DNA of 35,233 nucleotides from a bacterium (GTDB lineage: Bacteria; Ratteibacteria; UBA8468; B48-G9; DTJG01). The translations under genes were made by a program, and so were the position numbers. The notes beneath the pieces are model-generated. The model was not told the origin of the DNA, searched no databases, and saw only the letters and a program-made list of their open reading frames with translations. The stretch is taken from the NCBI GenBank assembly GCA_029552985.1, contig JAKPDB010000061.1, positions 1 through 35,233 on the forward strand, in the 5' to 3' direction. Of the stretch, positions 464-32,796 are shown one piece after another (the first letter of the stretch is position 1; every line of letters begins with the position of its first letter).

Positions 464-2356
464 TTACTGTATCACGATAATCTTTTTGTTTTTCTTTAAA
501 TAATTCAAAATTTCAGGGATGTCAGTGATTTTTAATATGCCTCTGGGAAAGTTGGCAGAGGGAAGTGGTGTTGACACAGTTTTGCATAAGTTGAAAAAGG
601 ATTCTGGAAGATTTTTAAGATAAATAGTTTTTACAACATCAGAAAGAAAAGCAACAAAAAGTCCGAGTAATGCGCCCTGGTGATTTCCATAAAGGTTGAT
701 TGTTTTGCAGTTTTTGTTTTTCAACAGTTCAATTGTTGAAAGCACATCAAAAATTCTTTTACCAATGTAGGATTCTCCAAACATTGTGTAGCACATATCC
801 ATCATGAAATCATAGCCATACGGTCTAAAGAAATTTTTCTTTTCTTCAGGCATTGATTCACCAAGACCCCTTACTTCAACAAAGTATTCAGTCACATCTG
901 GCAAAAAATTCTTTTTTTCAAAGATTTCATTTTCTGTAGATAAGTCAGGTATACATAGGTTTATTTCGTCTTCTAATTGAAGATTGTAAATGAAGTCAGG
1001 GTTCTCTATTTTCCTTTTAAGGATCACCCATATATCTTGCTCTGTTTCCACTGCATACCTTGCAATTATGGATTTTTTTATCATACAAGGCCGGAGAACC
1101 CTGTAATGGGGAACTGTTATTATGCCCGGAATTTTCAAAAGTTTCCTTATCCTACTTTTTAACTCTCCCTCTGTTAACTTTTGCCTCGCTTTTTCAATTT
1201 CTTCTGCCTTTTCTTTTATTATCAAGTACATCGGTTTTGAACCTGCAGAAATCACATTACCACTTTTTGTAGCAAATAGTGTCTCAGGTTTTTCAATGTT
1301 TATTTCTGGGTCTGGGGCAACAACTTTTTTCCCGGCGATTTTACAGAAAAATGACACCATGGCTTTCTGTGCATCTGAATAATAACCATGAGGATTATTA
1401 CCGATAAAAAATGAAAAATTGTTCTCAGCATCAAAAATTTTATAAAATTTTTTTACTTCCTTGCATATTTCGTGAAATCCTCTAATGTCAAAGTAGTCGT
1501 ACTTCTGACCAAGCAGTATTAGAGGTTCGGGTGCGCGTGATATAAAAAAGTCAGCAATTTCAACATCGCTACCAAGTACTCCTGGTGGACATTGTTCAAT
1601 ATCCTGCGGCATTTCATTTTCAATGTTGTATCTGAAAGGAGTGATAAAACAACTTGGCGCGGCAGCAGTAAATCTTTGTTCATTACCCCATAACCATGTT
1701 GTCATTGTTCCACCGCCTGAATTGCCGGTAACTCCTATGAAATTTTTATCTATATCCTGCCTTGTTAAAATATAGTCAAGTGCCCTTATTCCATCCCATA
1801 GCCGCCATGCTCCAAAAAACTCACCAATTAACTGTAGTTGTTTTCCCATCATATTATGCGCTGCACAGCAACTGCGCCTTAAAGAGGAATTTTTTGGCAG
1901 TTTTGTATACTGGTCTCTTTCACCCTGGTTGAATGGATCATAGATAAGTACGAGAAAGCCGTTGTGCACAAGACGTTGACAGAATTCCTGATATCTTGGT
2001 TCTGCTTTGCCTGCCGCTGAATGACCGCAGGTTCCAATCACTACTGGAAATGGAGCACTGAAATTTTCGGGAATATAAAGGTTTGCTGTGACAAGACATT
2101 CTGGTCTGCTTTCAAAAATGATTTTTTCAATGCGATAGTTTTTTCTTTTTACAATCCCAGTGATTCTGGGATTAAGGGGTGTCTTTTCCGGTAGAGGAGA
2201 AAATGCTTTTTGTATGACATTTCTTACCTGTTTTTGATATAGCTGCGCGTCTTTGACTGTTTTTATCTGTTTTAACAATGCTTTTCTTTCGATTTCAAGT
2301 TTCCTCATTCTTCTAATAAAGTGGTCAAGCAGCATATGCGAATAATCATTCTTCAT
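464..2356 (-). CDS. Tandem alpha/beta-hydrolase, acetyl-xylan-esterase/dienelactone-hydrolase-like
   Basis: 630 aa; N-terminal hydrolase with GNSGGG nucleophile elbow, KYDYFD acid region and NPHGYY His; second C-terminal hydrolase-like segment with LYGNHQGALLG. ATGA overlap with the upstream gene. Confidence 0.7.
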   Translation of the reverse strand: MKNDYSHMLLDHFIRRMRKLEIERKALLKQIKTVKDAQLYQKQVRNVIQKAFSPLPEKTPLNPRITGIVKRKNYRIEKIIFESRPECLVTANLYIPENFSAPFPVVIGTCGHSAAGKAEPRYQEFCQRLVHNGFLVLIYDPFNQGERDQYTKLPKNSSLRRSCCAAHNMMGKQLQLIGEFFGAWRLWDGIRALDYILTRQDIDKNFIGVTGNSGGGTMTTWLWGNEQRFTAAAPSCFITPFRYNIENEMPQDIEQCPPGVLGSDVEIADFFISRAPEPLILLGQKYDYFDIRGFHEICKEVKKFYKIFDAENNFSFFIGNNPHGYYSDAQKAMVSFFCKIAGKKVVAPDPEINIEKPETLFATKSGNVISAGSKPMYLIIKEKAEEIEKARQKLTEGELKSRIRKLLKIPGIITVPHYRVLRPCMIKKSIIARYAVETEQDIWVILKRKIENPDFIYNLQLEDEINLCIPDLSTENEIFEKKNFLPDVTEYFVEVRGLGESMPEEKKNFFRPYGYDFMMDMCYTMFGESYIGKRIFDVLSTIELLKNKNCKTINLYGNHQGALLGLFVAFLSDVVKTIYLKNLPESFFNLCKTVSTPLPSANFPRGILKITDIPEILNYLKKNKKIIVIQ

Positions 2357-3402
2357 ATATTTCCTTTCGTCCGTTCAATGATAATACCTTTCGTTTTTGC
2401 AAAGTCAATATAATCTGAAAGCATTTCATTCAGTAATTCTGGTACATTAAGTCCATATGGACATCGACACTTACATACTTCGCAATTTTTACAGTGTTCT
2501 ATTTTCAGCATGTTCTTCTGCCACTGAACTGTTAAAAATTTTCTGTATGGTGCCCTCCTTAATAGATACTTCATTCTTGCTGCCATTGGAATAGGAATAT
2601 CAGCAGGGCAGGGTAGACAATATCCACAGCCCCTGCAAAAGGATGAGCCAAGTAATTTTCTTTCTTCTGATATTTTTTTTCTTAATTCTGCGTCTAATGG
2701 GGGCGGGCTTTTTGAAAGATTGATAATCTGATTCAATTCTTTCATTCTCTGAATACCCCATACTGGAACAAGGTTTTCAAATTGCCAGAGGAAAGCAAAT
2801 GAAGTTTCAATATCAGCCAGTAATCCACCACAGAGAGGTTTCATTGCAATAAGACCAACATGGTGTTTTTTTGCTAATTCTATCAACTCAATTTCTTTTT
2901 TTGAAGAAAGCATCGAAAATGGATATTGCAGGGTATCATAAAACCCTGATTCTATGGTCGCTATTGCATTTGTTAGCTTGTGGGCAGTAATTCCAATAAA
3001 CCTTGCCATACCTTTCTTTTGGGCTTCTATCAATCCTGTGTACTGAGAGTCCTTATCATCAGGGTCTGGCAATTGCTGTGGATTGTGTAATTGTAGGATA
3101 TCTACATAGTCGGTCTGAAGTTGTTTCAAGCTTTCCTCGAGAAGCGATAGAATGTCTTTTTTATTCTTTCCATAAAGTTTTGTTGCCAGAATGATTTTAT
3201 TTCTTTTGCCTTTGAATGCAATCCCAATCTTCTTCTCGCTATCAGTGTAAGACCTTGCTGTATCAAAAAAGTTGATACCATGATCAAATGCTACGTGCAG
3301 TATCCTGACAGCTCTTTTCAGTTCTGTTCTTTGAATGGGTAATGCACCAAAACCAATCCGACTTACTCTTAATCCTGTTTTGCCAAGTTCAGTATATTCC
3401 AT
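2353..3402 (-). CDS. Aldo/keto reductase with C-terminal ferredoxin-type [4Fe-4S] domain
   Basis: MEYTELGKTGLRVSRIGFGALPI, FFDTARSYTDSE, DYVDILQLHNP; C-terminal Cys clusters CRGCGYCLPCP and CKNCEVCKCRCPYG. Confidence 0.93.
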   Translation of the reverse strand: MEYTELGKTGLRVSRIGFGALPIQRTELKRAVRILHVAFDHGINFFDTARSYTDSEKKIGIAFKGKRNKIILATKLYGKNKKDILSLLEESLKQLQTDYVDILQLHNPQQLPDPDDKDSQYTGLIEAQKKGMARFIGITAHKLTNAIATIESGFYDTLQYPFSMLSSKKEIELIELAKKHHVGLIAMKPLCGGLLADIETSFAFLWQFENLVPVWGIQRMKELNQIINLSKSPPPLDAELRKKISEERKLLGSSFCRGCGYCLPCPADIPIPMAARMKYLLRRAPYRKFLTVQWQKNMLKIEHCKNCEVCKCRCPYGLNVPELLNEMLSDYIDFAKTKGIIIERTKGNI

Positions 3403-5813
3403 TATTTTGGTGACCAGACAAATCCTCTACGGTAAAGACCACCAATTTCCTGAGTATTCCATACCCTGATTGTGATAAGATTTTTGGTACCAAACCTGAC
3501 AAATTTTGTGATGTCAAGATCAAAATCATGGCCACCCATCCACCAGAGGGCATGTGGCTTATGTCCCACATATTCTCCATTTACCCAGACCCACCCTTCA
3601 TTGATGACGCCACCACAGTAAAAGTGGATTGGTTTTCCTTTCCAGTTTGAAGGGATATTAACCCAGAATCTATACCATCCATAACCGTCATAGTCATGTC
3701 CGGCAGCATCGAGGGGTTCATCCTGCTGGTCCCATAGATAATATGTATTTTTCATTTCCCAGTTTTTGTCATTAAATTCTGGCAGATACCATTGCGCGAT
3801 AACACCTTCATTGAATGGGTCTTTTGAGAATCTTGCTTCAAGAGGTACAGGTGCGATCATAATGCCTGATTCACCATTTGTCATTTGATAAAGTTTACCC
3901 AATCGTATTTCTCTCCCTTTTGTGTAACATTCCCATTTATTGGTCAGCGCGCCTTTTCCGACAAGAAATTCTGAAATTTCATGAAGTTTTCTTTGGGCAT
4001 CAAGCATTCTACTTGCTGATTCCTTTGCTGTTTTGTAATCGAGGTTTTTTTCAGCTTCATGCATCTGCGTCCATGCCTCGAAATTTTCAACAATGAGCTC
4101 AAAGATTCTGAAGTGGTTCTTTTGTTCATCTGTCATATGACATTTTTTTGCTTGCTGGTAGAACTTATGGATTGAATTTGCAAATTCTTTGGTGTAAAGA
4201 TTATTCACGAGCCAGTCCTCGTGAACATGTTGTTTTCCTTTTAATAGTTGCGCTTCACACGCATCCCACCATGCTTGAATATACGGTGCTGCTTCTCTTC
4301 CAAAAAAGTTTTCATAGAAATCTTTTTTAATTGCTTCAATATCTGCATTGACATCCCACATTAGTTTTGCTGAAGTATAGTAACTGATCCAGGTTGCCAT
4401 CATGGTGTTGCTTCCCTGTCTTCCGAAGCCCTTGAGTCCTATTTGTTTGTAGATGGCCGCGTTAATTGCAAAGTTTGCGACATCCCTTTCGGGAATAAAA
4501 CCACTTACGAGAAAGCCAGGCGTATAATCGTAAAGCCACACATGCGGAGTAAGTTTTATCCATTGTTTCAGAATTTTTACCATTTCAATTCTACGCCAGC
4601 AATCAGTGGCATTATTGGGATGAAGAACGCAGCAACTGATTGGAGCATACATTACCACCATATTGGGTCGCAGTTCTACTGCCTGGGGTGGCATTTCTCT
4701 TAAGGCATATGCAGCAACAGCAACCCATTTATCAGGGAATGCATCTGCGAGTTTTACAGCAAAACTGAATACTTCCTCACTTTGCATTCTCTCGTGAATG
4801 TAGTTTGGATAATTAAAATTCTGACTTTGCGCAAGGCAGGTCTCACAATAACAATAAGGAACTCCGTCAGGTGGAGAGATACCAATACCAAGTTCACTTA
4901 CATTGGGAAACTGTCTTTTTCCTTCAAATGCTTCTTTGACATTTTTTAAGTATTCTTCCTGCATTTGTTTATTTGATAGACACAGCATTGTAAAAGATGG
5001 ATGACTTTTGGAAGTCACATTTCTTTTACCTGTTTTGTCCATCGCATAGAATTCAGGATGACTTTCAGCATACTCCTTGGGCGGAAGAGGCCAGGCAAGA
5101 TAACCGTCTCCAGGAATGGGATAAAGCTTTTGACCCCCCGTATAATCAGAACTGAATCCAACTTTTTTCGCCCATTGGGCGTAAATTTTCCTGTTTTCTG
5201 AAGAAAGTCCCCATCTTCCGTCAATCCAGATGCCACGCATTGCAAAATCAGGTTTTGCCTCAATATTAATTGCAGGCGCAATAATCGTTTTTGTTTGTGG
5301 TACTATTTCTCCCCAGGCACCCGGGAAATACCAGCGGCAGCCAAGTTTTTCAAGGAATGCATAAGCAGCATAAACTGTTCCCTGATAAGGCCCATCTTCG
5401 TTTCCGGCGATAAAAATATCGTTTCCAACTGTTGTGATGATATATCCTTCTTCTTGGTAAACATCAGGTCTGATTGCTGGATTGAAACCAGAAGGAATAT
5501 TGATTTTTTTCTTTTTTGCTGCTTCTGTATGGCCGACGTATAGGACTGTTGAAATGTCCTCGGGAATTTTTTCTGTTTCAGCAATTATCTTCAGTTCTGC
5601 GCCAGACATTTTTTTAATATAATTTTGTATTTCCTTTGCCGCTTCAGTGGCTTTGGGCGTTATGGATTGCTGCTTTGGAACAACAATTACTGCAGTTGGT
5701 ACGCCATCTTTTACTATTAAAATGTTTCCAGGTCTTGTTCTGTCTTTAATTCCTGCCTGGACGAAAATTGAAAAAACCAGTGCTGTTAAAAAACAAACAA
5801 AAAACCTTTTCAT
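3402..5813 (-). CDS. Secreted DUF4838-type protein (GH20-like/alpha-glucuronidase-like N-terminus, C-terminal jelly-roll-like domain)
   Basis: Signal peptide MKRFFVCFLTALVFSIFVQA; EIQNYIKKMSGAEL, EDGPYQGTVYAAYAFLEKLGCRWYFPG, ISPPDGVPYCYCETC; C-terminus WVWVNGEYVGHKPHAL. Confidence 0.85.
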   Translation of the reverse strand: MKRFFVCFLTALVFSIFVQAGIKDRTRPGNILIVKDGVPTAVIVVPKQQSITPKATEAAKEIQNYIKKMSGAELKIIAETEKIPEDISTVLYVGHTEAAKKKKINIPSGFNPAIRPDVYQEEGYIITTVGNDIFIAGNEDGPYQGTVYAAYAFLEKLGCRWYFPGAWGEIVPQTKTIIAPAINIEAKPDFAMRGIWIDGRWGLSSENRKIYAQWAKKVGFSSDYTGGQKLYPIPGDGYLAWPLPPKEYAESHPEFYAMDKTGKRNVTSKSHPSFTMLCLSNKQMQEEYLKNVKEAFEGKRQFPNVSELGIGISPPDGVPYCYCETCLAQSQNFNYPNYIHERMQSEEVFSFAVKLADAFPDKWVAVAAYALREMPPQAVELRPNMVVMYAPISCCVLHPNNATDCWRRIEMVKILKQWIKLTPHVWLYDYTPGFLVSGFIPERDVANFAINAAIYKQIGLKGFGRQGSNTMMATWISYYTSAKLMWDVNADIEAIKKDFYENFFGREAAPYIQAWWDACEAQLLKGKQHVHEDWLVNNLYTKEFANSIHKFYQQAKKCHMTDEQKNHFRIFELIVENFEAWTQMHEAEKNLDYKTAKESASRMLDAQRKLHEISEFLVGKGALTNKWECYTKGREIRLGKLYQMTNGESGIMIAPVPLEARFSKDPFNEGVIAQWYLPEFNDKNWEMKNTYYLWDQQDEPLDAAGHDYDGYGWYRFWVNIPSNWKGKPIHFYCGGVINEGWVWVNGEYVGHKPHALWWMGGHDFDLDITKFVRFGTKNLITIRVWNTQEIGGLYRRGFVWSPK

Positions 5814-6787
5814 TTTCCCTCCATTGTTTTGATTGTTGCAAGATAAATTCCAGATGCGTTTTTTCCCACCAAACTTTCTTTCCTGTCAAGTTCGTGTTGT
5901 GAATAATAGCTGATATAAAGTTTGCCGTTGTCTATAATTGAACCACAATAGGAAGTGTCTCCACCACTTGGAAGAATGAGAACTGGTCGCAAAATCATAT
6001 CTTTTGTATCAAGCTCAAGTATGGCTGTTTTTGGCTCGTATACAGTTTCATTCTTAATGTATGAATAAATTTTGCCATCAGGTCTTAAAAAAACTCTTCC
6101 TGCACAATATATTTTTCCATCATACTTGAAAATATGGGGACCTCTGACAACAAGATTTGTAGTATATCGTTCCCATTTTTTGTATGGGTATTCAGATACT
6201 GCCATGACAGGGGTTTTACAATCCTCCCTCCTGACAAATGCAAAGCATCTATCGTTTTCAAACAAAAGGTCAGCTTCATTGGCATGGTCATCTTTCACAA
6301 TAGTGGAAACAAACTCAAATTTTATACCATCTTCAGAGGCGAAAAGAAAACTACCTTTTTCTTCAGGCATTGACCTGCAGGCAGTTGCATAGGCAATATT
6401 ATGATAGATCCTTATTCTCCAGAACCTGAGGTTATAGTTTTCAATCCTTATTGGTTCAGAAAAACTTTGTCCATCATCAGAATACGCGACGTAAGAATGA
6501 ACCCAATGTCCGGTCATTTCTGGGTCATCAGAAATAGAAAAAAATACAACTCCAAGTTTATTTTTGAAAACAAAAAGTTTCGGGTCTCTGCTGTCTGGAA
6601 GTGCGGGAAATTTACATAAGAGTCGCCAGTTTTCGCCATCATCTGATTTTACTACATAGATTTCACCTCTGCCTGCAGGAGCATGTTGAGTAGCATGTCT
6701 GAACGTGATAAAAAAGTTACCCATAAATTTCGCAATATCTGTAAAGGCATTATGATAACCATCCCACCATACGCACCTGATGTTCAT
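5810..6787 (-). CDS. Beta-propeller glycosidase/sialidase-like protein (GH43/GH33-type fold)
   Basis: ORF listed to 6841; ATG at 6787 (MNIRCVWWDGYH) is preceded by AAAGGAG and removes the overlap with the upstream gene. Repeated propeller-like strands (KSDDGENW, AYSDDGQSF, ASEDGIKFEF). Confidence 0.65.
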   Translation of the reverse strand: MNIRCVWWDGYHNAFTDIAKFMGNFFITFRHATQHAPAGRGEIYVVKSDDGENWRLLCKFPALPDSRDPKLFVFKNKLGVVFFSISDDPEMTGHWVHSYVAYSDDGQSFSEPIRIENYNLRFWRIRIYHNIAYATACRSMPEEKGSFLFASEDGIKFEFVSTIVKDDHANEADLLFENDRCFAFVRREDCKTPVMAVSEYPYKKWERYTTNLVVRGPHIFKYDGKIYCAGRVFLRPDGKIYSYIKNETVYEPKTAILELDTKDMILRPVLILPSGGDTSYCGSIIDNGKLYISYYSQHELDRKESLVGKNASGIYLATIKTMEGK

Positions 6788-6827
6788 ACAAGCTCCTTTT
6801 TTAATGTTTTTCAATATACCAGAACTT

Positions 6828-7748
6828 TTATTGAAAAGCAAATGATGTATTTTGAATGATGATATTCTTGAGACCTATGCCTCTTGCAAATTCTATTGCC
6901 TCTTGATATTCCTTCTGAGTAATGGGTCTATTTATTTGTTCTGGTATTTTTCCGTATGGCCGATATTGAGCCATTATATTGACAAAAACCCTGTCTGAAA
7001 GCTCATTTTTTATAAAAAGAAAAATGTCTTCACTGCCTGCTACATGGTCTGGAAGTACAAGATGCCTGATTAACAATCCTCTTTTCGCAATACCATTTTC
7101 AATCTGCATTTCTCCTACCTGTTTGTACATTTCTTTTACTGCCATTTTGCATTTTTCAAAATAATCTGGTGCATTTGACAGAAGTTTCGCTGTTTGTGAT
7201 TTTGAATACTTTATATCAGGCATGTAGATATCAACGATTCCTTCAAGTAGTTTAATAATTTCTAAATTTTCATATCCGCCGCAGTTCCAGACAATTGGCA
7301 GGTTAAGTCCTTTATTAGAAGCAATTTTTATTGCTTTTATAAGTTGTGGTGTGTAATGAGTTGGAGTTACAAGGTTGATATTGTGGCAATTTCTTTTTTG
7401 AAGATAAAGCATAATTTCAGCGCATGTTTCAATTGAAGTGTGTTGTCCGGCTCCCTCGATAGAAATATCATAATTCTGGCAGAATAAACATCTGAGATTG
7501 CACCAGGTGAGAAAAATGGTTCCTGAACCGTGTCTACCAACAAGTATGCTTTCTTCCCCAAAGTGTGCGCCATAACTTGATACGTAGAGATTTGCATCCG
7601 CTCTGCAATAACCTGTTTCACCCTTTATTCTGTTGACACCACATTTTCTTGGGCAGAGCTCACACTTTAAAAGAATTTTTTCAAACTGCTCAATTCGCTC
7701 GCGAAACTCTTTTTCAGATAAATTTTTATAAGCAGGAATAAATGCCAT
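6828..7748 (-). CDS. Radical SAM protein, PflX/COG1313-type (pyruvate formate-lyase-activating-enzyme-like)
   Basis: CxxxCxxC radical SAM motif in LTWCNLRCLFCQNYDIS; N-terminal CELCPRKCGVNR...GYC cluster; NLVTPTHYTPQL; MPDIKY. Confidence 0.92.
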   Translation of the reverse strand: MAFIPAYKNLSEKEFRERIEQFEKILLKCELCPRKCGVNRIKGETGYCRADANLYVSSYGAHFGEESILVGRHGSGTIFLTWCNLRCLFCQNYDISIEGAGQHTSIETCAEIMLYLQKRNCHNINLVTPTHYTPQLIKAIKIASNKGLNLPIVWNCGGYENLEIIKLLEGIVDIYMPDIKYSKSQTAKLLSNAPDYFEKCKMAVKEMYKQVGEMQIENGIAKRGLLIRHLVLPDHVAGSEDIFLFIKNELSDRVFVNIMAQYRPYGKIPEQINRPITQKEYQEAIEFARGIGLKNIIIQNTSFAFQ

Positions 7749-7751
7749 TTT

Positions 7752-10307
7752 TTAAAATTCAATCATCACGATATCATTAATATCAAGCGGCATGGAAAAG
7801 TCAACTTTATATCCTTTACCAGATGGTTTTGCATTGAATTTTAATATGCCGGATTCACAGGAGATCACTTTTGACGGCTTTTTTGTCACTTCAATTACAG
7901 CATTCAGCTTTTCTATTGGCTGGTAAGTGAAATTTGCCAGTACAAGGCAGGTTCCGTTTTGAGAATCATAAACACCTGCCTCAACAACAGGATGAGAAAT
8001 GTCCACAAGTTTTTTCCCATTTTTAATGATTTCGCCAAGCACCCATTTCCTTATATTATCCTGCCACTTTTCTTTCAGGGCATTTGCGATAAACTTTGCT
8101 TCTTTTCCATAGGCAATGGCTGGACAACTTCCAATATATTCAGCAATTCCTTTACCATACTGGTTCCTGACACCTGCCGGGCTTCCATCATCAAAGGTTG
8201 CGATGACTTTGCCAGTTGAAACCCTGAAATTGATTTTTGCTCCTATCGCACCGATTTTGCACTCGTACGAGGTATTCGAACCTGGAGTAATGGTATCGAG
8301 GTAGTTTATTTCGTTCAATGCACCACGGATATGCCATCGACCCTGTTGAACAAGGACATCCGGATGTGGTCTTATTCCAAAAACTTCAGCGAGCCCCGGA
8401 ATTTTTTCATTGAATTGATTCCTCGTTCCTGCACCGCAACTACCGCGTATGTAACCACCGTTTTTTACCCATCTTTTTATTTCTTCAATCGCTTGCTGGT
8501 GAATGCAAGGATCTGTCACATAAAGAACTGAGTAATTTTTCAGTTTTCCAGCAATGATATCTTGTTCTGTTAGCATATCCACAAGATATTGCTGATGGGT
8601 GAGTGCAAGGTATGTCAGGCGTCTTTCAAGCATATGAACATACCCGTATGGTTGCCAGAGGTCAGAAGAAATACTATACAGAAGAGCAACATTTGTTGGT
8701 CTTGTTCTGCCATCAGCAAGGATATGTTCTGCCCGGGCTAATTGTTTTGTGATTTTTGCAATTCCATCATATTCGCCGCGCAGGTCAGACCAGTAATTTT
8801 CTGTGCTTGTTGCGGTTGGCCCGTATGTCCAGTAAAAGAAATGTTTTGCTCCCTGACATAGTGCTGAGGCAGTTTTCAATCTGAGGTTGATTTCATCACT
8901 TGGGGTAATCCATGCCATAATTGGCATTGTTGAATTACTGCCACTTCTAAAGATTGATGCTTGAAATCCCATCAGTTGAAATCCCTCCCATGTCCAGTTA
9001 GGACCATACATGTATTGAAGTCCCATCCAGTCCTCAATGCCTGCCATATCTACTGCTTTCCGCCTTGCCATGTCAAACCAGTCACAGGCAAGTGGAGTAG
9101 AACCCCAGGCAGGATTGGGTCCCATTCCCATACCCAGACCTGTTCCTGCAAAATAGGGATGGTCTGCGACAAGAGTTGAGGTATAAACATCGTTTGAAAT
9201 ATATTTGTGGACTGCTTCAGTAAGCCATCTAAACCTTTCATTTGTTGAAATCTGTCTGAATCTTGATGTATAGTAGAATAACCTGTTGGCAGCCGATGAA
9301 TTTTTCTTTTGTTGTTCTTTCAGTGCATCTGGCGTTTCGATCGGGACTGCTTCTTCAATTTTTTTTACTCCGATGTCCTCTGGTCTTACTTTTTGCTGTT
9401 TTAAATATGCGTGGAAGTTTTCAATCGCCACTGGATTATTTTTGATTTGTGGGCATGTGACTTCGTCTGAAAAATTGAAAGGTGAGCCTGGTTCTATTAC
9501 GATATTCTGCTTCCTGTACTGCTCTGCAATTTTTTTCACCTGTGTTTCTGTATCATCTTTTGATACTTCTGGTCCGAAATTTGCCCACATGTGTCCTGGT
9601 GACCTAAATTTATAATTTTCTTTTACTTCTTTTGTTTGATTACCTACAGTGTTAAAGCCGAGTAACCAGAGAACTTTTGCTTCTTTCAGGTTCAATTCTT
9701 CGCGCTGGGGTGCCCAAAATGATGTTTGAATTATGAGCGTTTGAGGGGAATATCTTTTGCCGCCTGTTGCCTGATTTGCCCATGTGAGATGTCTTTCTGT
9801 CATCTGACTTGCTGTTTCAAGAGATTCAGCATCTTTCTTAATATCGTTTGAGACAAGAAAACTTGTTAAACTTCCTTTGTAGGATTCTTCAAATTTTTTT
9901 ACTACCTTTGTTTCGTCAGGCAAAGTGGCAAGTTCAATAATGACCTTTCTTTCGGGATATGGCTTATCAGTAATAAAGTCAGCTGTGATGTTTGGAAATT
10001 CAGCAATCCCGCCAGAGCGGTTAAGTCGGCCATGCAGAGATTTTCCTGCGTGTCTTTTTAAGTCAAACCATGGTGTAAAGGTTCCTGCTTTCACCCAAAA
10101 TTGAGAGTTTTGATGAGCATTTCCTGGTACATAAGCAGAAGGAATATACCAGTTTGGAATGTGAATATAACCGCCAATTTTCACATAATAATTTGCATCT
10201 TTTGGTTCTATCATTTTAAATCTGACATATATTGATTCTTCATCTTGAGCAAGGATAAGTGATGTGAAAGAGGCAATCATGAGAGCAAAAGTACTTAAAA
10301 TTTTCAT
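7752..10307 (-). CDS. Large secreted glycoside-hydrolase-like protein with beta-galactosidase-trimerisation (GATase-like) C-terminal domain
   Basis: N-terminal signal-like MKILSTFALMIASFTSLILA; TIM-barrel-like centre (EPGSPFNFSDE, GIEDWMGLQYMYG, GAKHFFYWTYGP); NVALLYSISSDLWQPYGYVHMLERR...YSVLYVTDPCIHQQAIEEIKRWVKNGGYIRGS. Confidence 0.6.
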   Translation of the reverse strand: MKILSTFALMIASFTSLILAQDEESIYVRFKMIEPKDANYYVKIGGYIHIPNWYIPSAYVPGNAHQNSQFWVKAGTFTPWFDLKRHAGKSLHGRLNRSGGIAEFPNITADFITDKPYPERKVIIELATLPDETKVVKKFEESYKGSLTSFLVSNDIKKDAESLETASQMTERHLTWANQATGGKRYSPQTLIIQTSFWAPQREELNLKEAKVLWLLGFNTVGNQTKEVKENYKFRSPGHMWANFGPEVSKDDTETQVKKIAEQYRKQNIVIEPGSPFNFSDEVTCPQIKNNPVAIENFHAYLKQQKVRPEDIGVKKIEEAVPIETPDALKEQQKKNSSAANRLFYYTSRFRQISTNERFRWLTEAVHKYISNDVYTSTLVADHPYFAGTGLGMGMGPNPAWGSTPLACDWFDMARRKAVDMAGIEDWMGLQYMYGPNWTWEGFQLMGFQASIFRSGSNSTMPIMAWITPSDEINLRLKTASALCQGAKHFFYWTYGPTATSTENYWSDLRGEYDGIAKITKQLARAEHILADGRTRPTNVALLYSISSDLWQPYGYVHMLERRLTYLALTHQQYLVDMLTEQDIIAGKLKNYSVLYVTDPCIHQQAIEEIKRWVKNGGYIRGSCGAGTRNQFNEKIPGLAEVFGIRPHPDVLVQQGRWHIRGALNEINYLDTITPGSNTSYECKIGAIGAKINFRVSTGKVIATFDDGSPAGVRNQYGKGIAEYIGSCPAIAYGKEAKFIANALKEKWQDNIRKWVLGEIIKNGKKLVDISHPVVEAGVYDSQNGTCLVLANFTYQPIEKLNAVIEVTKKPSKVISCESGILKFNAKPSGKGYKVDFSMPLDINDIVMIEF

Positions 10308-10315
10308 GTTCCTCC

Positions 10316-12163: not shown

Positions 12164-12180
12164 TTCAGGTCCTTTTTTAT

Positions 12181-12209
12181 ATCATACCAGAGTTATAATA
12201 CTGTTTCAA
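12181..12209 (-). promoter_or_regulatory. Putative sigma70-type promoter for the minus-strand gene run
   Basis: Reverse strand TTGAAA (12204-12209), 17-bp spacer, TATGAT (12181-12186), just upstream of ATG at 12163. Confidence 0.45.
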
Positions 12210-12258
12210 TAATAAACAATTTACCTTGTTGGCCGTCAAATTTTCAGAAGTATTCTAT

Positions 12259-12287
12259 CTGTCAAACCTGAGATATGTTAATATAAA
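12259..12287 (+). promoter_or_regulatory. Putative sigma70-type promoter for the plus-strand gene run
   Basis: CTGTCA (12259-12264), 17-bp spacer, TATAAA (12282-12287); AAGGAG at 12294-12299 and ATG at 12306. Confidence 0.35.
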
Positions 12288-12305
12288 TACATCAAGGAGA
12301 ATAAA

Positions 12306-13832
12306 ATGAAGATAAATGTGAATCCTAAAAAAAGAATTTTTCTTAATACAGACGGCCTTACTCAATGGGACCTGAATATTTATCAGAGATTTCCAGAACC
12401 TGAAAAGGTGAAAATAAGCGGTCTCGAACCAGGTAGTTGTGGGTCCTGGGATAGTGGGCTTACCACTATCTGGGGCACTGTTTTGAAAGAAAAGAATCTT
12501 TTCAGAATGTGGTACTGGGGACAGCCAGAAACTCCTTCCTATGATGTCAGTCCTGATTTGCCTTTTGTTTGTTATGCAGAAAGTGAAGATGGTATCGACT
12601 GGAATAAGCCAGACCTTGGCATTACCGGGAAAAATAAGTACCCGGGAAATAATCTGTTAACCTTACCTGGTTGCTGTATGGGGGTTGTTCATGCTCTTCC
12701 AAAAACAGATGCAAAATATCTGATGGCACTTATTCGCTATAATGTTCCTCTGGTCCCTGATGTTACTGACATTCCTGAAAATAAACTGGATTGTCCAGGA
12801 GGTACCTATATATACGCATCAGATGATGGGTTGCACTGGAGATTACTGACAAAGGTGTTTATGCACGGTGACTGGGCTTGCCTTTATGCGGATAAAGAAA
12901 CAAACAGATACCTTCTTTACAATAAAGTTGGGGCAATGCATGGGCTTACCTCGCGCAGGTCAGCCATTGTGGTACAGAGTGAAGATGGTATACACTGGGA
13001 GGGCTATGACGGAGTAGGTGCCTGGCATGAATGCTTTGTTCCTGATGATTATGATGACGTAATCGCGAAACAGTATGGTGGAATACTTGCTGAATATTAT
13101 GGGGTTGGTATATATAGATGCGGGGATATTCTTGTTTCAGTGGAAGACATTTTCATTGTATGGCCTCCATTACGACAATGTTTTGCTCAGAATCCAAACG
13201 GTCTATGCCACTTTAGATTAGGTTTTTCTCATGACGGTTTAATATGGAGGCATCCACCAGGTAGACCAGTATGGCTATCTTTAGGATGTCCGGGAGAATT
13301 TGATGCCGGATTTATGGTTCCATCAAGCTCATTTGTTGAACATAATGACGAATTATTCTTTTATTATGGTGGTTCAAGATACGATCATGGCTGGTGCATC
13401 AATTCTGATTTTAGCTTGAACAGAAACATTCCTCTGTCTGACCATAAAAACACTGCAAAAATTATGATGGCAAAAATAAAGAAAGATAGATTTGCAAGTC
13501 TTTCATCTACCTATTCAGGCCGTTTTGATGTTGATGCAGAACATAGGTATGGAGATTTTCTTTATATTAACTGTCGCTGTAACAGTCCTGATAGTTATAT
13601 CAGAGTAGCCATTGCTGAAAAGCAGGGTCCATATCACGGTGCATTAAGAAAATCCGAGAATTTGCCTGGTTTTGGTTTTGATGACTGCATTCCTGTAACA
13701 GGCGACCATATTCGTGGTTGTGTAAAATTCAAAAACAACCACCTCACCAGTATTTCAACTGATATGCCGATAACATTGCGGTTTGAATTGAATAAAGCCG
13801 AGATTTTTGGCTATGAATGGGATGATGAGTAA
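12306..13832 (+). CDS. Five-bladed beta-propeller glycoside-hydrolase-like protein (GH43/GH32-type fold)
   Basis: YAESEDGIDWNKPDLG, IYASDDGLHWRLL, VQSEDGIHWEGYDG, FSHDGLIWRHPPGRPVW; RBS AAGGAG. Confidence 0.7.
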   Translation: MKINVNPKKRIFLNTDGLTQWDLNIYQRFPEPEKVKISGLEPGSCGSWDSGLTTIWGTVLKEKNLFRMWYWGQPETPSYDVSPDLPFVCYAESEDGIDWNKPDLGITGKNKYPGNNLLTLPGCCMGVVHALPKTDAKYLMALIRYNVPLVPDVTDIPENKLDCPGGTYIYASDDGLHWRLLTKVFMHGDWACLYADKETNRYLLYNKVGAMHGLTSRRSAIVVQSEDGIHWEGYDGVGAWHECFVPDDYDDVIAKQYGGILAEYYGVGIYRCGDILVSVEDIFIVWPPLRQCFAQNPNGLCHFRLGFSHDGLIWRHPPGRPVWLSLGCPGEFDAGFMVPSSSFVEHNDELFFYYGGSRYDHGWCINSDFSLNRNIPLSDHKNTAKIMMAKIKKDRFASLSSTYSGRFDVDAEHRYGDFLYINCRCNSPDSYIRVAIAEKQGPYHGALRKSENLPGFGFDDCIPVTGDHIRGCVKFKNNHLTSISTDMPITLRFELNKAEIFGYEWDDE

Positions 13833-16146
13833 AAAAATCTTGATGTTTATCGTGATCTTGTTTTCTGCAATAGTGTTCAGCCAGGAAAAGAAGGTTGAAT
13901 TAAGGGATATCATTCAGGCATTTCAGAAAAACGAATTTGATTTGACAATTGAACTTGCAAGTAGAGCAATCAAGGAAGGTTTAGACCAACCTGATTTGTA
14001 TTTTTATCTTGGTATGGCGTATGCAAAAATTGGAAAAAACCAGGAAGCAATTCAAGCATTCAGAACATTTCTCAATAATACCGATTATTCAAAAAACCAA
14101 TGGAACATAAGACAGGCATTTCAGAATCTTGTTAATATTTACAGGGACGCTAAAAAGTTTGAGTCCACTGTTGAAGATGGCGTCATTTTCCTTGAAAAAA
14201 TGAAGGTCGCTAACAACACAGAACAACTCCAGTTATTCTGCAAAAACATTATTGCAGAGGCGCTGAAGGAAATAGGAAATCAAAGAAGTACCAGTAATGA
14301 TTTTGTCGGAGCAATAGAGGCATACAAGAGAGCTCTTGAATATAAACCGGATGACCCTTCATCCTATGTGAGAATCGCGATATATTATAAGAATCTGGGG
14401 GAAAATGAACTTGCAGCCAAATATTTTTTGAAATCCGCAACCCTCTGGAGTGCCTGGTCCGGCAAGATCTCACCATTGTTTTCTGCTACTGAACTCATAT
14501 GGGAATCAGGAAAATTTGAGGAGTTTGCAGGAATAGTAGAAAATGACCCGTTTTCATACAATTTTCTTCTCGCGATGGCAGAAATGAAAAAACACAAATT
14601 TCAGGATGCGTTTTTGAGGATAAAAAAAATAGAAGAAAGCGCTGGCTCTAATGGAAATGTATCAGAAAGAATTTTGAAAAACTGGTATAAATGGTTTGGA
14701 GAGGATGCAAACTTTTTTTATTGCTTTGTCGTTGCTTTCCCCGAACATCAGACGGCATCGTGGGCTATTGATATGATGACAAATGTCGCGACAAGAGATT
14801 CTGACACAGCAAAAGTAATAAGAGAAAAAATTGTGCCATCGTTGGCTGAATTTTTTGAAAAAAACAAACAATCTCCAGGCGTGAAAAAACTTTTCCCAAA
14901 ATTGGTTGACTTAAAATTCGCAGGGATTCCTGAGACCGCGGAAACAGCCAGAGAAAAAATCAAAATGTATGAAGAATTGAAAGAAAAAGTTTCTGATGAA
15001 GATGTGATTCAGGATATTATTCGAAGGGAAGCATCGCTTTATGCTGATATCCTTTCTGATTATGCGAAAGGGAAGGAACTTTATGAATTACTTGTTAACA
15101 GGTACAAACAGAAAAGTGCGATTCAACCATTTGCGAAATGCTTGATAAATCTTGAACAATTTGACCAGGCATATCAAATTCTTACACAGTATCTTTCTGA
15201 TAAAAGTGTTGGTGAATACGGCAGATTTCAGGCAGCACAGCTTTTAATTCAGGCGAATTTTTTTGATGAAGGAATAAAAATTCTTAATGAAATTGCTTCA
15301 GCTACGAAAAACAGGTCAATGATACAACAGGTGAAGGATATATTGAAAAATTTTAAACTGTATTTGAAAGACGATACGATGATTGAAAGTGCCACAAAAT
15401 TTGTTGTTCTCAATCTAAATAAGAAAAAATACTATTTCACCAATTTTACTTCCCTTACAGAGGATTGCGCACTCCTTTTTCAGGAAACTGAAATGCTTGA
15501 AATTATTCCTTTTGCCACTGAAAGGAAGTATGTTGATTGCGATATCGAATGTATTTCTGACGATGAAATTTCTTTAACAGAGCCGTACACGATGATATTT
15601 CAGAAGGATAACAAATATTTTGTTAAATTAAAAAGAAGAATTTCATTTAGCCCTGATAGATGGAGGAAATCAGAAGGTATTTCACTGATTTTTCCATGGC
15701 ACGACATTACCACAAACCAGATAAAGGTCGTGCGCAACTATTCAACAGAAGGGGAATTTGGAATATCTTCGATATCTTTTGAAAAATTGAAGCCGGGGAT
15801 GAGAATTGAGGTGTATTTTTCAACAAGAGCTGGAAGATTTGAATCTGTTCTGCCTGAATCATCTGAACCAGGTCCTGGTGGCGCAATGATTTTTCAACCA
15901 TCAGATGAGAAATTCGAAGTAAAAATCAAATTCAAGCCAAATGCTGATTTACTTGCATATTATCCAAGAGTGAGAGTTATCATGGAAGACAAAACAGAAC
16001 CAAAAAAAGATGAGAGTAGTTTCCCACTGTCTTTGAGAACAGATAAGACAGAATTTCGGATTACATTTGGTACAGATTTAAGAGTGCATTCCATTTTACG
16101 GACAGATGAGATTGTTTATGAAATTGATGAGAAAATTGACATTTAA
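13822..16146 (+). CDS. Secreted TPR-repeat protein with uncharacterised C-terminal region
   Basis: Start chosen at MMSKKILMFIVILFSAIVFSQ (signal peptide); ORF extends to 13807. TPR-like repeats (DLYFYLGMAYAKIGKNQEAIQAFRTFL, GAIEAYKRALEYKPDDPSSYVRIAIYYKNLGENELAAKYF). Overlaps the upstream stop codon. Confidence 0.8.
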   Translation: MMSKKILMFIVILFSAIVFSQEKKVELRDIIQAFQKNEFDLTIELASRAIKEGLDQPDLYFYLGMAYAKIGKNQEAIQAFRTFLNNTDYSKNQWNIRQAFQNLVNIYRDAKKFESTVEDGVIFLEKMKVANNTEQLQLFCKNIIAEALKEIGNQRSTSNDFVGAIEAYKRALEYKPDDPSSYVRIAIYYKNLGENELAAKYFLKSATLWSAWSGKISPLFSATELIWESGKFEEFAGIVENDPFSYNFLLAMAEMKKHKFQDAFLRIKKIEESAGSNGNVSERILKNWYKWFGEDANFFYCFVVAFPEHQTASWAIDMMTNVATRDSDTAKVIREKIVPSLAEFFEKNKQSPGVKKLFPKLVDLKFAGIPETAETAREKIKMYEELKEKVSDEDVIQDIIRREASLYADILSDYAKGKELYELLVNRYKQKSAIQPFAKCLINLEQFDQAYQILTQYLSDKSVGEYGRFQAAQLLIQANFFDEGIKILNEIASATKNRSMIQQVKDILKNFKLYLKDDTMIESATKFVVLNLNKKKYYFTNFTSLTEDCALLFQETEMLEIIPFATERKYVDCDIECISDDEISLTEPYTMIFQKDNKYFVKLKRRISFSPDRWRKSEGISLIFPWHDITTNQIKVVRNYSTEGEFGISSISFEKLKPGMRIEVYFSTRAGRFESVLPESSEPGPGGAMIFQPSDEKFEVKIKFKPNADLLAYYPRVRVIMEDKTEPKKDESSFPLSLRTDKTEFRITFGTDLRVHSILRTDEIVYEIDEKIDI

Positions 16147-18400
16147 CATCATCATAGCATTTTTTGCCTGTTTTGTCTGGCATGCGACAGCAGAAGTCCT
16201 TTTTGATTTTGAAAATGGCACGCAGAACTGGACATCTGTTTATGAGCAGCAAACATTAAAAGTTTCAAAGAATTTTGTTTCAAGTGGAGCAAATTCGCTG
16301 GCTATCGATGTGCCGGGTATGAAAGAGTCCTGGATAAAGGTTGATACTGATTTTGACCTGACTCATTCTGACGCGTTATCACTGGATATTTACATACCAT
16401 CAAAAACCAAAAACTATGTTTCTTTTATCTGCTATATCAAGGATAAAAACTGGACATGGTTTCAGACGGGTCTTTATCAAATTAACCTGAATGAAAAGAA
16501 AAGATTTACAATTGACATCTCTGATACAAGTTCTCAATGGCAGCCTGCCGCAGGACTGGCTTGCTGGGACGGATACACAAAGAGAAATATTCGGGAATTT
16601 GGAATAAAATTTTTCTTCTATTTTCCTTTTTCCGGTACCGTTTATATTGACAATATTCAAGCAATTCCAGGACAGAACGAGCAACAGATTTTTCTTTTTA
16701 ATTTTGAAACAAATGCTGAGACAATCCCACAATACGACAAATTCGAGGTATCATTTGAAATTCCTCTTGTTTTTGACAATCCATTTGACCCGGATGAGAT
16801 TGATATTTCCGGGATTTTTTATTCTCCATCAGGTAAGAAAATCTCAGTTCCTGCGTTTTTTTACAGGGACTTCATTAGATGTCTCGAGGAAAATGGTGAG
16901 AAATTGTATCCATATGGGAAACATCGCTGGTGCATAAGATTTGCGCCTGAGGAAATCGGTGATTACAGATACGAAATTGTTTTAAGTTTTGCTGGAAAGA
17001 CGAAAAAATTTGACTGCGGTTGGTTTAAGTGTGTGGCTGGCACAAATCCAGGATTTATTAGATGGGATAATCAAGATCCACAGTGCCTTTCTTTTTCAAA
17101 CGGTGACTTTTTTTATCCGATCGGACATGTACTTCGTTCTCCTGATGACGTACGACAGCCATATAAATATGAATTTACTCCTGACAAGGGGAAAGGGACA
17201 TTTGCCTATGACGATTATTTCAAAAAAATGAAGGATAATTTTGAAAATTACATTAGAATGTGGATGGGTGCATGGTGGGTGGGTATTGAATGGACACCTG
17301 CTTATGCGCAGCACTACGAAGGTATTGGTCGATATAGTCTGGAAAATTCCTGGAAACTTGATTATGTACTGGATATAGCAAGACAGAATGGTATATACAT
17401 TGTTCTAACTCTGATTAACCATGGACAGTTTAGTATCAGACCTGACGCAGAATGGTGGGATAACCCATATAATGTTATCAATGGTGGTTTTTTGAGTTCT
17501 CCAGATGAATTTTTTTATAGCAGTGAAGCGGAAAAATGGTTTTTAAAACGGCTCAGATATATTGTGGCACGCTGGGGATATTCAACTCAGATCGCCTTCT
17601 GGGAAATGTGGAATGAAGTGGACCTTACTGGATATTATGATTCAAAAAATATCAGGCAATGGCATGAGCGACTGATTCCTCTTTTGAAAAAAATGGACCC
17701 GTACAAACATCCTGTTACCAGTCACATTTGCAGGCCAAATGCTGACCCGATGGTCTGGATAGTAAAAGACATTGAAACACTTGTCAGCAATGCATACAGT
17801 CAAACCGTGGTTGATACCATGCGAGAGTATTATTTTAAGAGAAAACCTTTTGAAAAACCAATGCAGATCCATGAATTTGGCGTGGGAAGAAACAGCAGGG
17901 AACTTGAAAATAATCTTCACGCAGGATTATGGACATCATCCTTATCACCAATGCTTGGAACAGCGTTGTTCTGGTGGTGGCCATTTATTGATAAAAAGGA
18001 CTTATACTTTCATTACAAAGCACTTGCCCTGTTTCTTAAAGGAGTGGATAGAAGAGGCAAGAATTTCCAAATTTCCACAGCAAAACTTATGTCAACGACA
18101 GGCAGCGTGACTTCAAAAGCTGGTGTTACTGGCATGCAAAATATGAGTTCAGCGTATCTATGGATTTATGATAACTCAATTTTCAACTCAAGAGTGCCAT
18201 CAGAAAAGGAACAGTTGATAGATGACGTAAAACTTGTTGTTGAGGTTTTTGAACCCGGAATTTATAAAGTAGAATTCTGGGATACTTACAATGGCAGGAA
18301 ATTTTCAGAATTTGAAAAAAAATTGGATAAGGGTGAATGCGAAATTTTACTTCCTGCTTTTACAAAAGACATTGCAATCAAAATAGAGAAAAAATTATGA
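16127..18400 (+). CDS. Secreted DUF5060-containing GH5-like glycoside hydrolase with N-terminal carbohydrate-binding-like domain
   Basis: Start chosen at MRKLTFNIIIAFFACFVWHATA (ORF from 16106). FDFENGTQNWTSVYEQ CBM-like; FEVSFEIPLVFDNPFDPDEIDISGIFYSPSGKK DUF5060-like; WEMWNEVDLTGYYD and MQIHEFGVG as candidate acid/base and nucleophile. Confidence 0.8.
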   Translation: MRKLTFNIIIAFFACFVWHATAEVLFDFENGTQNWTSVYEQQTLKVSKNFVSSGANSLAIDVPGMKESWIKVDTDFDLTHSDALSLDIYIPSKTKNYVSFICYIKDKNWTWFQTGLYQINLNEKKRFTIDISDTSSQWQPAAGLACWDGYTKRNIREFGIKFFFYFPFSGTVYIDNIQAIPGQNEQQIFLFNFETNAETIPQYDKFEVSFEIPLVFDNPFDPDEIDISGIFYSPSGKKISVPAFFYRDFIRCLEENGEKLYPYGKHRWCIRFAPEEIGDYRYEIVLSFAGKTKKFDCGWFKCVAGTNPGFIRWDNQDPQCLSFSNGDFFYPIGHVLRSPDDVRQPYKYEFTPDKGKGTFAYDDYFKKMKDNFENYIRMWMGAWWVGIEWTPAYAQHYEGIGRYSLENSWKLDYVLDIARQNGIYIVLTLINHGQFSIRPDAEWWDNPYNVINGGFLSSPDEFFYSSEAEKWFLKRLRYIVARWGYSTQIAFWEMWNEVDLTGYYDSKNIRQWHERLIPLLKKMDPYKHPVTSHICRPNADPMVWIVKDIETLVSNAYSQTVVDTMREYYFKRKPFEKPMQIHEFGVGRNSRELENNLHAGLWTSSLSPMLGTALFWWWPFIDKKDLYFHYKALALFLKGVDRRGKNFQISTAKLMSTTGSVTSKAGVTGMQNMSSAYLWIYDNSIFNSRVPSEKEQLIDDVKLVVEVFEPGIYKVEFWDTYNGRKFSEFEKKLDKGECEILLPAFTKDIAIKIEKKL

Positions 18401-20424
18401 AAAAGTTTATTATACCGATTATCGTTATTGCCTGTTTTGTTAACTGCGGTTCTGGCTACACATTACGAGCCAGAGTAAAGATTCAGCAACCGCAACTTAA
18501 ACAGTTTCAGCAGATAGCAAAAGTTAATTTGCCTTTACCTGAAAAAGGTTATGTGTATGTGGCAGATACCACTGGTTTGAAGGTACCATGTATCAGGGTT
18601 AAATCCAGTCAACAACAGAGAGATTCTATATATTTCAAGACAAACGAAAATGATATTTATTATGTTTACTGGCTTTCAGAGGAAAAGAAACAGGAGACCG
18701 GAATTTTTGAGATTCCAGATGGTAGAGTGATACTTGATGATTTTGTTAATCCTTCTGCAAGAACCTCTGGATTCTGGTACTGGAGTTCTCATCCCTGTTT
18801 AAGTGGAAGGTTTTCTCACTCTGGCAGAAGTTCACAGAAGATTAATTCCCATTATACAGCGATTACACCAGGAGAAAAACTGAAACCTTTGGATATTTTC
18901 TATCAATATGTTTTCATTGATAAAAACCAGCCAGCATCTGAAATTATGCTTGAAATACAAACACAGAAAAGGAAATCTATCTATTTTTCATGGGGTTCTG
19001 ACATTATTAAGTGGAAAAATCTTAACAAGATTCATATGGGTGAGCTTCCTGAGGCAGGTAAATGGATACAGCTGTTAATTCCTGTTGATAAAATTGATAA
19101 AGGTGTTGAGATTACTGGTATTGGTTTTTACCATGCTGATGGTAGGGTACTGTGGGATTATACAACAATTGGTAATCCTCCTCTTGAGGCAAATATTCTT
19201 CAATGGAATCAGGGAAATAAGAAAATAAATGCTTTTTTCGATAGTGAAATTTTTGGGCCATTTGCGTTTTCAGAAAAAGTGTTCAATCTCGTTTTATTAA
19301 ATGCTTCAGCATCGTCTGGCGCTGACACTTTTGAATGGTTTATTGAGGGGCAAAAGTACTCGGGTGATAGGATATTAAAAAAATTCGACAGCAAGGATAA
19401 GACACATGTCATGCTGACTTCTAAAAGTATGGCTTTGAAACAATCAGATACATTTTCTGAAACAATCGTTTTTCAAAAAAAATCTCCTGAACAATTAAAT
19501 CTTTTTCTTGAAATCCTTCCTCACAAAAATCTTATTAATCAAGGAGAAAGATTTTTCGTGCCAGTTCGGGTAGGGTCTTTAATCTCAGGGATTGTTCCTG
19601 TTGAGCTTTCCATAGATGGACACAACCATTTACTAAAACTCTTCCCAGGACAGGAAAATTCAGAAATTACCAATGTGTTTTATTCTCCAGAAACAACAGA
19701 AATTCATGATATAGAAATTAAACTTGATGACCTTGTTGTCGCTAAGAAAAATTTACGCTTTGTTCCTGTTGACCATCTTGATATGAAACATCTTGATGGT
19801 CCTTATCTCAGAGACGAAAACAATAACAATCTGGTGGCGTTTATTCCTGATTATAAATATTCTGATATTTCCACTGAAACGCAAATTAAACAGTTGACAG
19901 TTATTGGAGACATACCTGAAAACTTTCTTAAAAAATTGAAGGAGAAATTGTCGAAAAATATAGAAATTAAATGGCTAAAATATCCTGAAACCCAGGCATA
20001 CCACGCAATTTCAAATGTATTGTGGCTGAAACAAGAAATTGAAAACCGTAATATGGAAACAGTAATTTTATTTCCTTCTATTGAAAGTTTATTGAGGAGA
20101 ACACCGATTGACCAGTATATCGTTTGTCTTGATGCAGAAATATGGTTTTTGAGTAAAAAAGCAAGAAAAATTATATGTGTTGGTCCTTTTCCCTCTGCTC
20201 CAATTCCAGAGATGTTTAAGATTTATGCTGATGCCACAGTTGACCTTTGTAAAAAAAGGAATGTGACCTGTCTTAATCTTTATGACCTTTACACCAGTTT
20301 GCCAGACTGGACAGAGCTATTCAGTCCATCCCGTGGTATTTACAAAATCTTTCCATCAGAAAAAGGGTTAGGAATTCTTATTGATGAGATAATAAAAATT
20401 GTGGGTGCCAGCAGGCAAACTTAG
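18397..20424 (+). CDS. Putative exported protein with carbohydrate-binding-like N-terminus and degenerate SGNH/GDSL-like C-terminus
   Basis: ATGA overlap with the upstream stop at 18400; signal MKKFIIPIIVIACFVNCGSG (lipobox-like Cys). C-terminal ADATVDLCKKRNVTCLNLYDLYTSLPDW...FPSEKGLGILIDEI matches the end of SGNH folds. Confidence 0.6.
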   Translation: MKKFIIPIIVIACFVNCGSGYTLRARVKIQQPQLKQFQQIAKVNLPLPEKGYVYVADTTGLKVPCIRVKSSQQQRDSIYFKTNENDIYYVYWLSEEKKQETGIFEIPDGRVILDDFVNPSARTSGFWYWSSHPCLSGRFSHSGRSSQKINSHYTAITPGEKLKPLDIFYQYVFIDKNQPASEIMLEIQTQKRKSIYFSWGSDIIKWKNLNKIHMGELPEAGKWIQLLIPVDKIDKGVEITGIGFYHADGRVLWDYTTIGNPPLEANILQWNQGNKKINAFFDSEIFGPFAFSEKVFNLVLLNASASSGADTFEWFIEGQKYSGDRILKKFDSKDKTHVMLTSKSMALKQSDTFSETIVFQKKSPEQLNLFLEILPHKNLINQGERFFVPVRVGSLISGIVPVELSIDGHNHLLKLFPGQENSEITNVFYSPETTEIHDIEIKLDDLVVAKKNLRFVPVDHLDMKHLDGPYLRDENNNNLVAFIPDYKYSDISTETQIKQLTVIGDIPENFLKKLKEKLSKNIEIKWLKYPETQAYHAISNVLWLKQEIENRNMETVILFPSIESLLRRTPIDQYIVCLDAEIWFLSKKARKIICVGPFPSAPIPEMFKIYADATVDLCKKRNVTCLNLYDLYTSLPDWTELFSPSRGIYKIFPSEKGLGILIDEIIKIVGASRQT

Positions 20425-31699: not shown

Positions 31700-32796
31700 C
31701 ACCAAGGGAAAGGCTCATTAGAGTTTTTCAATGTCTTGATGTTGACAGGATGCCTATCAGATTGTGGGGTGTTGACCCTATGTTTCCTGTAAGGGATGAC
31801 TGGAAACCATTAATTGAACTTACAGAAAAACACCAGATTGAAATTATTAGAACCTGGGCCCCTTCAGGTGAAGAAATTCCAGAACCTGTTTGTAAACAAT
31901 ATGATACTGAAAAAACAATTCCTGGAAAAGAAATAAAGGAAATAATCACGACCATTGAAACACCTGCTGGTTTGCTGACCCAGATTTTTTATCAGCCACT
32001 TTCAGGTGCTCCTGGATATATTAAAAAACACTTCATTGGGGATACAACTGATGCAAAAAAGTGGCTTTCAATTCCAGATAGCAGACTGCCGAAAATTGAT
32101 TCTTATTTTGAACTGGAGAAAAAAACTGGCTCAAGAGCAATGCTGATGATTGGTATAGATGAGGCGATGTATATGGTTCAAAGGTTGATGGGTTCAGAGG
32201 TTTTCGGTTACTGGCTTTATGATGAAAGGGAACTTTTGAAAGAAATGATAGATAGGGCATACAGGAAAATAGAAAAACTTGTAAAACATTATCTATCATC
32301 AAAACTTGGTGATGCATATGGATGGGTTGGACCTGAACTTTGTATTCCTCCTCTTGCATCAGTGAAAGATTTTTATGAATTTGTTGTAGAATATGATAGA
32401 AAAATCATTGACCTGATTCACGAGTCAGGAAAGCTAAGCTGGATTCATTGCCATGGAGATATGAAACCTGTATTAGAGGGATTTATTGATATGGATCTTG
32501 ATTGTTTGAATCCAATTGAGCCACCACCAGTTGGTAAAATTACTCTTGCCGAAGCAAAACATATTTGCAAAGGGAAAATGTGTCTTGATGGTGGCATAGA
32601 AGATGGAATTTTTTATACCTGCAAACCAGAACAAATAAGGCAGATTACAATAGAAACGATTCAACAAGGAAAGCCAGGAGGTGGCTTTATACTCTGTCCA
32701 TCATCTTCTCCGAATACTGCAGCAGTGTTGCCTGAATATGTGATAGAAAATTACAAAATTTTTGTAGAAACTGCTGTTGAATTGCGGAATTATTGA
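31696..32796 (+). CDS. Uroporphyrinogen decarboxylase (UroD/MtaA) superfamily protein
   Basis: MTPRERLIRVFQCLDVDRMPI start overlapping the upstream TGA (ATGA); ORF listed from 31615. WIHCHGDMKPVLEGFIDMDLDCLNPIEPP; CLDGGIE; GGGFILCPSSSPN. Confidence 0.85.
   Translation: MTPRERLIRVFQCLDVDRMPIRLWGVDPMFPVRDDWKPLIELTEKHQIEIIRTWAPSGEEIPEPVCKQYDTEKTIPGKEIKEIITTIETPAGLLTQIFYQPLSGAPGYIKKHFIGDTTDAKKWLSIPDSRLPKIDSYFELEKKTGSRAMLMIGIDEAMYMVQRLMGSEVFGYWLYDERELLKEMIDRAYRKIEKLVKHYLSSKLGDAYGWVGPELCIPPLASVKDFYEFVVEYDRKIIDLIHESGKLSWIHCHGDMKPVLEGFIDMDLDCLNPIEPPPVGKITLAEAKHICKGKMCLDGGIEDGIFYTCKPEQIRQITIETIQQGKPGGGFILCPSSSPNTAAVLPEYVIENYKIFVETAVELRNY

Follow-up and report, generated by a model that had tools for sequence, protein, structure and literature searches.

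Do the eleven genes that diverge from one short intergenic region of this bacterial DNA form a single saccharide-processing system, and is their lack of transporters and regulators what sets them apart? Both were proposed in a sequence-only reading of the window, i.e., the whole stretch of 35,233 nucleotides that was analyzed. The window is an entire contig (C39) of a 2.2-Mb genome assembly (178 contigs, 86% complete), and the genome-wide statements below are family searches of that 86%-complete assembly. Metagenome assemblies labelled Candidatus Omnitrophota and a TA06 bacterium are its closest named relatives.

Layout and conservation of the locus

The locus spans positions 464–20424 and contains 11 ORFs, seven on the minus strand and four on the plus strand, flanking a 142-bp gap (Table 1). 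Ortholog alignments moved the start of g4 from 6841 to 6787 and reset those of g9, g10, and g11 to 13822, 16118, and 18397, respectively. As a result of these corrections, g10 and g11 overlap by ATGA and the gap between g5 and g4 becomes 40 bp. ATGA overlaps also join g2/g1 and g4/g3, the g3/g2 junction is TAATG, g8/g9 and g9/g10 overlap, and 8 bp and 3 bp separate g7 from g6 and g6 from g5, respectively. The divergent arrangement with overlapping or near-contiguous junctions was thus confirmed. Two operons, each presumably co-transcribed, are supported by conserved synteny in the genus. Judged by hydropathy, g3, g6, g9, g10, and g11 carry export signals and g1, g2, g4, g5, g7, and g8 do not.

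Table 1. Features of the divergent locus, with ortholog-corrected starts
Feature	Coordinates	Strand	Description
g1	464–2356	-	Tandem alpha/beta-hydrolase (esterase-like), cytosolic; Pfam Peptidase_S9 7.6e-6, Abhydrolase_7
g2	2353–3402	-	Aldo/keto reductase with C-terminal 4Fe-4S domain; Pfam Aldo_ket_red 1.3e-33, Fer4_17 2.1e-6
g3	3402–5813	-	Exported GH67N-DUF4838-GH2 sugar-binding-domain protein; Pfam 3.7e-46
g4	5810–6787	-	Asp-box-like propeller protein, cytosolic; SxDG repeats
g5	6828–7748	-	Radical SAM, PflX/AmmeMemo-like; Pfam Radical_SAM 3.6e-12, NCBIfam
g6	7752–10307	-	Exported GH42-like protein with trimerisation domain; Pfam Glyco_hydro_42M 5.6e-6
g7	10316–12163	-	Short cytosolic DUF4838 protein, xDG..CxCxxC motif; Pfam 3.4e-11
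Divergent intergenic region	12164–12305		Weakly conserved within the genus
g8	12306–13832	+	Cytosolic propeller protein; missing from two sister genomes
g9	13822–16146	+	Exported TPR protein (Pfam TPR); first gene of the class-wide trio
g10	16118–18400	+	Exported DUF5060/GH5-like protein; Pfam DUF5060 7.9e-12; N-terminal Mann_GBD domain
g11	18397–20424	+	Exported protein, SGNH-like C-terminus without catalytic Ser and His; Pfam, no match

Each of the other seven genomes of the genus keeps the gene order (8/8 with this one); the genes are not scattered. As far as the contigs extend, no sister genome lacks more than one or two of g4, g5, g6, and g8: g8 is absent from G003 and G006, g6 from G002 and G007, g5 from G004, and g4 from G001. 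Therefore, a chance assembly of the gene set is rejected, and some of its members are dispensable. Where contigs extend, one flank of the locus has genes for alanine dehydrogenase, an aminotransferase, Gfo/Idh, and H+-pyrophosphatase, and the opposite flank has a PHP phosphoesterase gene. Three sister genomes have an additional gene 3' of g11 (L049:9228-10394, L047:7242-8483, and L111:2803-3984), which is absent here; it precedes the alanine dehydrogenase gene in G007 and G005, and the L049 copy is weakly BNR_2-like. An extra gene in G005, URO-D-like by eye, is inserted in the divergent intergenic region (L045:8644-9663).

The DUF4838 proteins and their neighbors

Both g3 and g7 passed the gathering cut-off of DUF4838 (PF16126), with 158 and 43 bits, respectively, against 26.6. 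Structure prediction, which the sequence-only reading had recommended, gave a confident AF2 model of g3 (pLDDT 90.2, pTM 0.89, 39 aligned sequences). Its nearest folds in a Foldseek search were GH115 (E 1e-17), followed by GH138, GH84, and GH67, and a viral fold library yielded no useful match. The model and the Foldseek matches indicate a GH20b-type N-domain followed by a TIM barrel, which is the arrangement of the GH67/GH115 fold group. A profile of g3 matched GH67 at two collinear places, the N-domain and a Y..a.L.W signature after barrel strand 8. For the GH67 N-domain, the profile match against 1k9d is 6.6e-15 and the Pfam score stays below the cut-off (GH67N, 20.8 bits against 24.3), and neither g3 nor g7 matched the Pfam GH67 catalytic domain. 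The GH20b-type N-domain, barrel, and signature are shared with the GH67/GH115 alpha-glucuronidases (1k9d, 4c90, and 7pxq). However, the identity is about 12%, and a Cys4 motif and one invariant Asp are features of DUF4838. The DUF4838 proteins look like uncharacterised relatives of alpha-glucuronidases.

The invariant residue, Asp316, is found in 39/39 DUF4838 sequences and is the sole strictly invariant carboxylate; strand counting in the g3 model places it after strand 4. In the related families GH20, GH84, and GH67, this position carries acid catalysts, and Asp316 may play the same role in DUF4838. Position 429, near strand 7, is Asp or Glu in 31 of the 39 sequences. Cys321, Cys323, and Cys326 are present in 32–33 of them, and column 278 is Cys (or His) in 88% of the members with this Cys trio versus 14% of those without it. 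This covariation in the alignment suggests that Cys278, Cys321, Cys323, and Cys326 form a structural metal site adjacent to the active site. A third DUF4838 protein, g17 (29282–31699), lies outside the locus and belongs to a subfamily in which all four motif Cys have been lost together. In a separate arrangement, g17-type DUF4838 is repeatedly paired with a GH42-like protein, partly together with a ~610-aa protein of unknown function and URO-D; this is seen in several named assemblies (Omnitrophota, TA06, and others; L013, L056, L057, L058, and L059). The literature searched, 5.4 million papers, contained a single mention of DUF4838 and neither activity data nor a function for PF16126.

The families named in the sequence-only reading were confirmed by Pfam for the Fe-S aldo/keto reductase, the two DUF4838 proteins, and the radical SAM, TPR, and DUF5060/GH5-like proteins. 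For the esterase g1, Pfam support is weak and the Ser/Asp/His set is conserved: the first domain keeps Ser213/Asp/His322, with GNSGGG and the His conserved, the Ser of the second domain is not conserved, and homologs match AXE1/GCE_fung. The propeller assignments found no counterpart in Pfam (g8) or in Pfam and NCBIfam (g4); a profile of g8 has weak similarity to GH130-type phosphorylases (7.5e-4). Like AmmeMemoRadiSam radical SAM proteins and PflX, g5 has a CxxxCxxC motif plus an N-terminal Cys set. It scored 23.2 bits against the AmmeMemoRadiSam NCBIfam equivalog (cut-off 220), and the locus contains no Memo/AMMECR1 partner. The profile of g6 matched GH42 structures, and g6 shares the trimerisation domain and two catalytic Glu that characterize GH42 with the beta-galactosidases 9ta3 and 3tts; Glu282 and Glu425 are invariant in 20 homologs. 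Unlike those enzymes, g6 has a longer N-terminus, a signal peptide, and no Pfam match to the GH42 catalytic domain, only to Glyco_hydro_42M.

The WNE and HEF/YG glutamates are conserved in g10, which matched the solved DUF5060 structures 9gmj/9gpc over 560 residues (E 2.7e-74) and differs from them by its added Mann_GBD domain. Prediction of its structure from a single sequence failed (pLDDT 34.7), and no function or activity of DUF5060 or the 9gmj series was found in the literature searched. The SGNH assignment of g11 did not survive as an enzyme. The catalytic Ser (GDS) and His (DxxH) are not conserved, with GDxP lacking the Ser and PSxxG lacking the His in 11/11 aligned orthologs; a working SGNH hydrolase is ruled out, and the likeness is at best a degenerate fold resemblance.

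Two modules with different distributions

Orthologs of g10 with about 50% identity are present in other families (61 genomes searched). Their neighborhoods contain g9-g10-g11 in the same order in G026, G031, G017, G023, and G018, and g9-g10 in G016. None of g1–g8 adjoins the trio in the stretches read around g10 orthologs of other families, and DUF4838 has no match at all in G016 (g9-g10 only), G023, G026, and G031. Outside the genus, g3 has no match above about 33% identity among 37 relatives. These distributions make the trio the older, independent unit and confine the DUF4838 operon to the genus. The locus is a composite of a class-wide exported trio, g9-g10-g11 (module B), and a younger genus-specific cassette, g7 to g1 plus g8 (module A). 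In G031, the trio adjoins Memo/AMMECR1 and DsbD_2 genes (L104:3-2012); g5 here is an AmmeMemo-like radical SAM protein.

We consider it fairly probable that the two modules, a glycan-degradation cassette and an ancestral exported unit, share one divergent control region. In the reading that we favor, a glycosidase/esterase cassette with secreted and cytosolic members, probably for an acidic or acylated glycan, was hitched to an ancestral exported complex. The exported g3, a putative exo-glycosidase of the GH67/GH115 type, and the exported g6 would trim the polysaccharide outside the cytoplasm. The oligosaccharides would be imported by shared transporters encoded elsewhere and finished in the cytosol by g7, the propellers g4 and g8, and the esterase g1, with redox steps by g2 and g5. 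The older TPR/GH5-like/pseudo-SGNH unit of module B probably processes glycans as a complex in the periplasm or on the outer surface, which is our guess, and module A would have been linked to it later. Plain hydrolysis offers no obvious role for the radical SAM, reductase, and TPR genes, and this counts against the explanation, as does the absence of g4, g5, g6, or g8 from some sister genomes. A shared operator in the intergenic region was rejected, as conservation there is patchy and weak within the genus; joint control of both modules therefore remains a proposal.

Genome context and alternative explanations

No transporter or regulator was seen among g1–g11, directly beside them (g12–g14), or in the ortholog contigs read, where not every flanking ORF was scanned against Pfam. 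A canonical gene of either kind just outside, which could have made this an ordinary described locus, was thus not encountered. As in Bacteroidetes polysaccharide utilisation loci, glycosidases, exported plus cytosolic, are clustered with an esterase. Unlike those loci, it has no SusC/SusD, regulator, or transporter; it contains neither the SusC/SusD pair of a Sus-type locus nor the transporter or regulator adjacent to a CAZyme that marks a CAZyme gene cluster. The genome has no TonB-dependent receptor, and family searches found three ABC permease pairs and about eight MFS genes against 18 DUF4838 and at least 15 GH42-like genes. Four Peripla_BP_3 regulators are encoded, one of which lies two genes away from another DUF4838 gene. 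Because the scarcity is genome-wide, the lack of transporters is a property of the lineage and not, as had been supposed, a peculiarity of the locus.

The genome also brings in the best-surviving alternative, which overlaps our explanation: an ordinary CAZyme cluster of a glycan-specialist genome, whose families are uncharacterised because the lineage is unstudied. We regard this as evenly balanced. The number of DUF4838 and GH42-like genes in one 2.2-Mb genome and the transporter scarcity agree with it, but it leaves the conserved trio and the Cys4 site of DUF4838 unexplained. Speaking for our own two-module explanation, six of the 15 GH42-like genes lie within 6 kb of a DUF4838 gene (1.3 expected, P 0.001), a radius chosen after inspecting the positions; at 3 kb, the association is not significant (P 0.18). 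Also in its favor, the genes of paralogous DUF4838 loci include those for a fucosidase, a sulfatase, an AXE1-like esterase, and Hepar_II_III; URO-D is present there as well. In a more distant locus, DUF4838 stands together with a PcRGLX-like lyase and a homolog of g10.

That all 11 genes act jointly on one modified glycan, as first proposed, appears unlikely. The order is fixed across the genus and the overlapping g8-g9-g10 are probably translationally coupled, but other families of the order and class have the trio with none of g1–g8 next to it, among them genomes with zero DUF4838. Still less probable is a role in envelope or exopolysaccharide synthesis and modification. The TPR protein, the glycosidase, and the SGNH-like partner may resemble the TPR, hydrolase, and SGNH components of synthase-dependent export, hydropathy predicts export of g9 and g11, and in other families the class-wide trio has a GT9 heptosyltransferase-like gene and a T2SS-C/PDZ gene nearby; however, the locus has no polysaccharide synthase or glycosyltransferase, its SGNH-like domain is without catalytic residues, and the paralogous loci contain sulfatase, fucosidase, and heparinase-like genes.

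The locus is a real, conserved glycan locus of uncharacterised families in two modules. An uncharacterised saccharide-processing system, as originally suggested, is supported by the conserved catalytic residues, the synteny, and the fucosidase, sulfatase, and heparinase-like genes of the paralogous loci. The DUF4838 fold and the separable trio are of more interest than the missing transporters. DUF4838 proteins are numerous in uncultured glycan degraders, as the copy number here illustrates, and the fold assignment, the candidate catalytic Asp, and the predicted metal site make them a tractable enzyme family. The trio is a class-wide target whose function can be approached independently of glycan catabolism. 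A bolder, joint proposal has two parts. DUF4838 would be a so far undescribed family of glycosidases within the GH67/GH115 group, in which a metal knuckle of the four Cys buttresses the active-site Asp, and g9-g10-g11 would encode an exported complex, likewise undescribed, that a whole class of uncultured bacteria conserves and that the DUF4838 cassette joined in one genus. We give the two parts together slightly less than an even chance.

The esterase and the alpha-glucuronidase-like fold fit the acylated or uronic glycan of the sequence-only reading as a candidate substrate class. Its methylated alternative is unsupported, because URO-D genes, considered as demethylation partners, show no significant clustering with genes of the DUF4838 or GH42-like kind (7 observed against 5.0 expected within 6 kb, P 0.23). 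The 2.2-Mb genome contains 34 URO-D-family matches, an unusual expansion, with one region in the window (31615–32796), and a single clear MtaC-like corrinoid protein (C116:70805).
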